From: Pseudomonadota bacterium | GTDB taxonomy: Bacteria; Pseudomonadota; Gammaproteobacteria; Steroidobacterales; Woeseiaceae | Reading direction: 5' to 3' | Assembly: GCA_022572185.1 (NCBI GenBank) | Contig: JACZWL010000016.1 | Coordinates: 1 to 61,112 of the forward strand | Length of the DNA stretch: 61,112 nucleotides | Shown here: positions 27,679-27,996 of the stretch, piece by piece | Layout: the number at the start of each line of letters is the position of its first letter | Position numbering within the stretch: position 1 is the first letter of the stretch | Translations under genes and position numbers: made by a program | Notes under the pieces: model-generated | Told to the model about the DNA's origin: nothing | Databases searched by the model: none | What the model saw: the letters and a program-made list of their open reading frames with translations, nothing else

Positions 27679-27768
27679 GGAGAGGTGCCGGAGTGGTCGA
27701 ACGGGCTTGACTCGAAATCAAGAGTACGGTTATCCGTACCGTGGGTTCGAATCCCACCCTCTCCGCCA
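27679..27768 (+). tRNA. tRNA-Ser (anticodon CGA)
   Basis: The 90-nt gene folds as a class II tRNA: acceptor stem GGAGAGG/CCTCTCC, anticodon arm CTTGA-CTCGAAA-TCAAG with anticodon CGA (reads UCG), a long variable arm (TACGGTTATCCGTA), the T arm with GGTTCGAATCC, discriminator G and an encoded CCA. It is followed by repeats of its own 3' end and lies at the edge of the block that separates mltF from purL. Confidence 0.97.
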
Positions 27769-27996
27769 AAATCCAGGACCCCATCGGGGTCTTGGGGATT
27801 TTGGCAGAGGGTGTAGGATGAGAACCCTGTTCGACAAATCTGCAGGAGCAGATTTGGACGCACGCAGTGCGCCCGGAGGGCGAGGTGCAGGGATGCACCG
27901 AGTCAATCCCACCCTCTCCGCCAAATATTAGTTGGGCCCATTACGGTCCGATTATTATTCGGAAGAGGGTCCAGGATGAAAACCCTGTTGGACAAA
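27750..27996 (+). repeat. tRNA-Ser 3'-tail tandem repeats (about 155 bp)
   Basis: The last 19 bases of the tRNA plus two following bases (27750-27770, containing CCCACCCTCTCCGCC) are repeated exactly at 27905-27925. A second block (27806-27838, containing AGGATGAGAACCCTG) returns at 27964-27996 with four mismatches in 33 bp. Together they define two tandem units of 155-158 bp whose middles have diverged. The first unit also has several short hairpins, for example GTGCAGGGATGCAC. The layout recalls the E. coli tyrT repeats, which carry the tRNA-Tyr tail (rtT). An attachment-site duplication is the other reading. The 27769-28114 gap holds nothing else that I recognise. Confidence 0.85.
27766..27804 (+). 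terminator. Hairpin directly after tRNA-Ser
   Basis: CCAAAATCC pairs with GGATTTTGG at the base and GACCCC with GGGGTC at the top, starting at the CCA end. The descending arm contains TTTT. It may terminate the tRNA transcript or guide 3' processing. Confidence 0.4.

Follow-up and report, generated by a model that had tools for sequence, protein, structure and literature searches.

The window analysed here, a stretch of 61,112 nucleotides from a Woeseiaceae genome, carries directly downstream of its sole tRNA gene, a tRNA-Ser(CGA), a repeat unit that is by its anatomy a tRNA-linked repeat (TLR) in a new lineage and at a new host, and that we assign with high confidence to the kind represented by tyrT/rtT of Escherichia coli. 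To explain it, we put forward, at slightly less than even weight, a joint reading in which the hairpin-rich body of the TLR would be a structured DNA element in the loop of a tRNA copy, its hairpins would be kept as DNA and its RNA would be a by-product. The locus comprises the following parts:

27679–27768 (+): intact tRNA-Ser(CGA), by ARAGORN; Rfam tRNA, 61.6 bits
27750–27768 (+): first tail copy, A58–A76 of tRNA-Ser(CGA), 19 nt, by direct-repeat comparison
27766–27804 (+): hairpin beginning in the tRNA CCA, CCAAAATCC/GGATTTTGG with inner GACCCC/GGGGTC, from the sequence
27796–27827 (+): anti-tail, an imperfect inverted copy of the T-arm and acceptor strand with the motif GGATGAGAACC, by inverted repeat
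27829–27834 (+): GTTCGA, T-loop-like left flank of the body, from the sequence; first six positions of the body model R1
27835–27904 (+): body, 70 nt, hairpin-rich, C...GAGTC, by R1 match and DNA fold
27905–27923 (+): second tail copy, exact (19/19 nt), by repeat comparison and genome search
27924–27996 (+): truncated second unit, spacer and anti-tail (27958–27996), an 85% repeat of the first block

The order along the DNA is tail, CCA hairpin, anti-tail, GTTCGA, body, second tail and start of the next unit; the unit begins directly behind the tRNA, at 27769, and the truncated second unit follows it. The 21-mer AATCCCACCCTCTCCGCCAAA (27750–27770), i.e., the tail and the next two bases, is repeated with 100% identity at 27905–27925, and the sequence-only reading, which had described this exact repeat at 155 bp, gave its coordinates and spacing correctly. 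That reading had also reported a second block of 33 bp at nearly the same spacing; the spacing stands (158), but the length does not, the block being 39 nt long (27800–27838, repeated at 27958–27996 with 85% identity). The 32-nt anti-tail is 81% complementary to 27743–27774. For the body, the covariance model gives four hairpins and the DNA fold of the window copy three (z −5.15); the R1 match at 27829–27908 scores 95.2 bits, with the window sequence itself among the 12 sequences from which R1 was built. Beside the truncated second unit, a tail search of the assembly with up to one mismatch found no third tail copy, and no second R1 match was found beside the first unit; the truncated unit stops before the body. 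By eye, many relatives carry a terminator-like hairpin at the position equivalent to 27766–27804, where a pattern scan gave a terminator-like match on the minus strand only; the scan found no sense-strand match in 27500–28120.

An exactly duplicated tail at the 3′ end of a tRNA gene typically signals integration, and the sequence-only reading had offered a phage-type attachment site as one possibility. The exact tail duplication at the tRNA 3′ end would then be the attachment site of a phage or integrative element. Several observations argue against this: the copies are only 155 bp apart, the same layout with the respective own tails occurs at many tRNAs, and none of the eight integrase matches in the genome lies on the window contig, C89. 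The exact 19-mer tail has four occurrences in the own genome, two at tRNA-Ser(CGA) and two at tRNA-Ser(TGA), and a one-mismatch match is the end of tRNA-Ser(GGA); at up to one mismatch the tail is confined to these three tRNA-Ser genes, with no solitary copy elsewhere in the 99-contig assembly, in which a missing piece is conceivable. An integrase and a far att copy were sought and none was found on the contig, and the next ORF downstream of the unit (564 aa, window 28115–29809, +) has no Pfam match at E up to 0.01. The attachment site is largely refuted by these results, and we regard it as very improbable.

Duplication of the host's own tail exceeds chance. The census started from 114 Rfam tRNA matches in three genomes; stretches around 113, together with earlier loci, yielded 113 tRNA genes by ARAGORN (own genome 33, G006 42, G020 38). 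When the last 19 nt of each tRNA were sought with at most three mismatches within 600 nt (less for some stretches at contig ends), the own tail recurred downstream of 16 of the 113 tRNAs (3, 5 and 8, respectively), in 14 of these cases with at most one mismatch, and upstream of none (0/113). As controls, tRNA nucleotides 1–19 or 20–38 recurred downstream in 1 of 226 tests, and foreign tails (at least seven differences) matched in 10 of 7046. The hosts of the 16 copies are Ser, Thr, Asn, Met, Phe, Arg, His, Pro and Gly tRNAs, the Gly copy being host-matched only with three mismatches. Across all loci, tails that match their host were seen at Gln, Lys, Arg, Met, Thr, Glu, Asn, Phe, His, Pro and Asp tRNAs as well, and the serine host is thus not special. 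Presence of the unit varies, as is evident from 28 tRNA-Ser best-match loci (anticodons CGA and GGA mixed), of which 11 have a tail copy; among the 17 without one, two run into a contig end.

The content of the units varies as well. Of the census tail copies, only six of 16 have an R1 body inside the unit, namely both Ser copies of the own genome, an Arg and a Phe copy of G006 and two Arg copies of G020, and a seventh census locus with an R1 match, L187, has its body upstream and not in the tail unit; the other tail copies contain, by eye, shorter hairpins or none. As judged by eye, the T-arm is uninterrupted in the Thr, Asn, two Met and His copies, whose first nucleotide lies before A58, and insertion therefore cannot explain every tail copy. 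On the other side of the gene, tRNA 5′ heads recur upstream of 9 of the 113 census tRNAs, and five of the nine hold a hairpin body by eye; tRNA-Ser(GGA) of G006, for example, is preceded by two exact head copies, and here the anticodon loop contains the body. Specificity of the anti-tail is uneven, the own tail ranking in the top 5% for 14 of 51 non-independent units, and host-specific anti-tail pairing is unsupported as a general rule. A second body type, AAGATCAATC...GATTGGGTTC, is present at the tRNA-Asn and two tRNA-Met genes of G006 (L170, L171, L177) in tandem units of 177–180 bp, and three tandem bodies lie in one tRNA-Gln unit of G017 (L030/L072, contig C43).

A single MAFFT alignment of 33 whole units yielded no usable consensus structure, and modelling was therefore restricted to one body type. 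R1 includes GTTCGA and AATC (ten fixed nucleotides) and hence favours T-loop flanks; it gave 145 matches in 100 loci, two of them unplaced at locus ends, and 138 after removal of repeats. A same-strand tRNA lies within 1300 nt of 84 R1 bodies, and 55 of these match that tRNA at at least 11 of 12 flank positions, in the T-loop (42), the D-loop (8) or the anticodon loop (5) and nowhere else. All 36 downstream cases are in the T-loop, and the 19 upstream cases are divided among D (8), T (6) and anticodon (5) loops. When the flanks were compared with 244 pooled tRNAs, both strands included, 99 of the 122 unique body junctions agreed with a tRNA at no fewer than 11 of 12 positions (T 79, D 12, anticodon 6, other 2; the regions called loops make up 47% of positions), and 64 agreed at 12 of 12. 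When the ten model-fixed nucleotides were kept and the outer nucleotides shuffled, two runs gave 32 and 39 of 122 at the lower threshold, mostly T-loop (27 and 29), and 4 of 122 each at 12 of 12; fully shuffled flanks gave 8 of 122, a weak control in which the model-fixed nucleotides are destroyed. The tRNA-derived flanks of the bodies are real. The T-loop share is partly built in, since R1 contains GTTCGA and AATC, and the D- and anticodon-loop cases (18 versus 4 and 5 in the controls) are cleaner evidence because R1 does not favour them.

The alternative that bodies sit in the loops of any hairpin finds no support: the longest complementary run of the flanks measures 4.40 versus 4.33 for re-paired flanks without a nearby tRNA, and 4.42 versus 4.19 with a tRNA. 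At five loci (L119, L120, L128, L351, L358), bodies lie in the antisense T-loop of tRNA-Phe-like fragments. At two others, a body or an entire unit splits a tRNA-Ser(CGA) gene and a tRNA-Ser(GCT) gene (L241 and L254, respectively) at the T-loop; both loci come from metagenome assemblies, in which the interruptions may be artefacts, and the three and two other Ser genes retrieved from them do not include the same anticodon.

The body covaries: 14 of 25 pairs are changed on both sides and 0 of 500 shuffles reach as high, figures that lean on the choice of the 12 sequences, which were picked by eye for similar structure. If a sense RNA were under selection, G–U pairs would be expected to be far commoner than A–C mismatches. 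In 118 non-redundant bodies we count 30 G–U against 58 A–C, under stricter filters 19 against 37 and then 11 against 24, and in the 16 best-paired columns 13 against 30. The 53 bodies downstream of a tRNA (10 against 28) and those neither downstream nor upstream of one (10 against 25) agree, and the 22 upstream bodies lean the opposite way (10 against 5). For comparison, 98 distinct tRNAs of the census gave 50 against 3 in their acceptor and T stems, a control biased to G–U because ARAGORN rewards G–U over A–C. The count covers the body and not the anti-tail/tail helix, on an alignment fitted to R1. Overall, body pairing points to DNA hairpins or a DNA copying process and not to a sense RNA. 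GNA triloops were set aside as a sign of DNA hairpins, as the loop calls overlap and have no control.

These counts bear directly on the reading of the unit as an rtT-like functional processed RNA, in which a read-through transcript would be cut after the second CCA and serve either in regulation or as bait for the enzymes of tRNA processing. Such an RNA would be in agreement with the RNA fold of 27796–27923 (z −4.26), in which the anti-tail pairs with the tail copy, with the excess of G–U in upstream bodies, and with the body covariation together with the tandem GA motif that has covariation support in Rfam RtT (PMC7657543). The motif GGATGAGAACC is also found in distant taxa, which we count against the DNA-element reading. 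There is precedent for expression: in E. coli, read-through of a terminator yields the RrA, RrB and RrF transcripts, to which Hfq and CsrA bind (PMC8144298), and two RtT-family RNAs of Actinobacillus pleuropneumoniae, Arrc20 and Arrc21, were seen on Northern blots (PMC4986893). On the other hand, G–U pairs are not in excess in all bodies together or in the downstream bodies, bodies also occur antisense to tRNA fragments, and, according to PMC8144298, the tyrT phenotype was later retracted and the authors' own TLR deletions gave no clear phenotype. Taken together, we consider a functional processed RNA unlikely.

The units are widespread. The pattern of body end plus tail, with no tRNA required, was found in 95 stretches of the species-genome collection, among which 80 loci with 87 sites were examined: at 59 sites the tail agrees with that of a tRNA upstream (no more than 2 of 18 mismatches), at 48 of them exactly over 19 nt, at one site the tail of the upstream tRNA differs, and for 27 sites the search met no tRNA within 1200 nt, although upstream sequence is shorter than 300 nt for 12 of these. 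Among the matched records are Woeseiaceae, Rheinheimera, Alishewanella, Stenotrophomonas, Cedecea, Buttiauxella and Ectothiorhodospiraceae, and three are labelled as other groups (Deltaproteobacteria, Alphaproteobacteria and Midichloriaceae). R1 matches were obtained in 27 of 40 relatives (E up to 0.01), in 144 of 370 genomes of the class (E up to 1e-6) and in 65 of 397 genomes of a phylum sample, 35 of the 65 lying outside the class; a tRNA is present in 8 of 20 R1 loci taken from outside the class.

Among 45 bodies from 19 genomes, those at the same tRNA across genomes resemble one another beyond expectation (8 of 2000 label shuffles), and those at different tRNAs within one genome are not significantly alike (140 of 2000), so that vertical inheritance is better seen than hopping, and hopping between tRNAs within a genome finds no significant support. 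The likeness of same-tRNA bodies would suit plain tandem duplication with template switching at tRNA genes, in which slippage copies the ends and makes inverted copies, the body is a passenger and the hairpins arise via quasipalindrome correction. The succession of sense, antisense and sense tails fits this process, as do the arrays of 177–180 bp units at four tRNAs of G006, the ten of 16 census tail copies that have no R1 body, and G–U pairs no commoner than A–C, which suits a mutational process at the DNA level. Yet the same body type is present in 144 of 370 genomes of the class, bodies occupy D- and anticodon- as well as T-loop copies, for which slippage alone is insufficient, and the anti-tail favours the own tail only unevenly (14 of 51 units); we judge duplication alone to be improbable.

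Movement of the body is suggested by the variation in hosts, loops and strands and by near-identical dispersed copies, which lie in the own genome without clear tRNA flanks; the analysis linked the body to no transposase and showed no empty site. A body-type repeat just after tadA (window 25858–25945, +; 39.4 bits, E 1e-7) has no clear tRNA-like flanks, and a similar sequence occurs in tandem on contig C61. By eye, three near-identical bodies on contigs C9 and C53 of the own genome (L095, L096, L099) lie between the arms of a REP-like hairpin, GAGCGGCTT...GAAGCCGCGA, and in a fourth, L097, one of the arms is missing where the contig ends.

REP elements of RAYT (Y1) transposases resemble the body in being short non-coding hairpin DNA with dispersed copies; they have a GTAG-type head and a hairpin like the repeats that flank the RAYT gene. 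The own genome has two Y1 transposase matches, one of which, at window 6216–6539 (+) in a 185-aa open frame, we take to be of RAYT type. This gene is flanked by GTAGGAGCGGCTTCAGCCGCGA repeats, which by eye are unlike the body, and G006 has bodies but no Y1 match; these observations support neither a RAYT as the mover nor the body as its REP.

Among the readings considered, we favour insertion, as a working hypothesis. The body would be a small structured DNA element within the T-, D- or anticodon loop of a partial tRNA-gene copy, lying between GA on its left and A on its right, and the working gene alongside would stay intact. A unit of the window type would run from the tRNA CCA through the hairpin spacer, the antisense T-arm/acceptor and the body to a second copy of host A58–A76, and an insertion point in the T-loop would explain why the tail of such units starts at A58. 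The body hairpins appear to be maintained at the DNA level, and RNA from read-through transcripts is therefore probably a by-product without a main role. The element may move, with single-stranded DNA hairpins as its likely substrate and the partial tRNA copy as a putative safe site. Our confidence in the joint reading was lowered from slightly above even because of the harder junction control and the count of six bodies in 16 tail copies.

A bolder extension, to which we give about one chance in three, is that many TLR/rtT repeats are remains of a so far unrecognised class of tiny, protein-less DNA elements that enter hairpin loops of tRNA genes and survive only in partial copies, by which the working gene is spared. 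Such elements would enter T-, D- or anticodon loops after GA and before A, on either strand and probably as single-stranded DNA hairpins, and the 19-bp tail repeat, with any rtT-type RNA, would follow from the A58 insertion point. If true, the loop rule would readily account for the odd 19-bp boundary in part of the TLR family, would join units upstream and downstream of tRNAs in one picture, and predicts that the conserved body structure belongs to the DNA and not to the RNA that has been studied; Rfam RtT matches may then mark DNA elements instead of regulatory RNAs.

The likeness to the E. coli tyrT repeats proposed in the sequence-only reading is upheld by a full-length RtT alignment and by the layout and motifs of the tyrT/tyrV sequence. 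Rfam RtT (RF00391) aligns over its full length, model positions 1–130, to 27797–27923 with 27.8 bits (E 0.008), which falls short of the gathering score of 45 bits; it matches in 20 of 60 relatives at E up to 1, in 3 of 60 above the gathering cut-off, and, among 14 control genomes, in E. coli only. Downstream of E. coli tyrV there are three exact copies of its own 19-nt tail, and downstream of tyrT one. The window and tyrT/tyrV share GGATGAGAA, TTCGAC, CCCGNAGGGCGA, a CCCGAAGGGCGA-type hairpin and GAGT in front of the tail, and they are comparable in unit length (155 versus 178 bp); they differ in the serine host of the window and in its body with GACAAATC...GATTTGGAC and GAGTC.

TLRs have been known since 1978 and were still without known function according to a 2021 paper (PMC8144298), which describes 22 of them at ten loci of E. 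coli K-12, each with a 3′ end of 18–19 bp equal to the end of the upstream tRNA or rRNA; the window agrees with these in its tail and in its tandem units. TLRs sit immediately behind a tRNA or rRNA gene, with one to five units at each locus, and transcription together with the tRNA, followed by processing, is shown for some members only. The 5S-linked RrA, RrB and RrF sRNAs, whose unit lies between two terminators and has a copied 3′ end, are comparable; their host is 5S rRNA, whereas that of the window is tRNA-Ser. Arrc20 and Arrc21 lie upstream of tRNA-Asn and tRNA-Lys genes in a member of the Pasteurellaceae and are likened to the window by description and not by sequence; their expression is documented, and the accessible part of PMC4986893 makes no mention of tail or head copies or of a loop position. 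No title listed in the searches of an open-access collection concerns bodies in tRNA loops. The loop positions and the DNA-type pairing exceed the accounts of TLRs in the sources available to us, and the upstream head units and the D- and anticodon-loop bodies of the relatives extend beyond the account of E. coli TLRs in the accessible part of PMC8144298.
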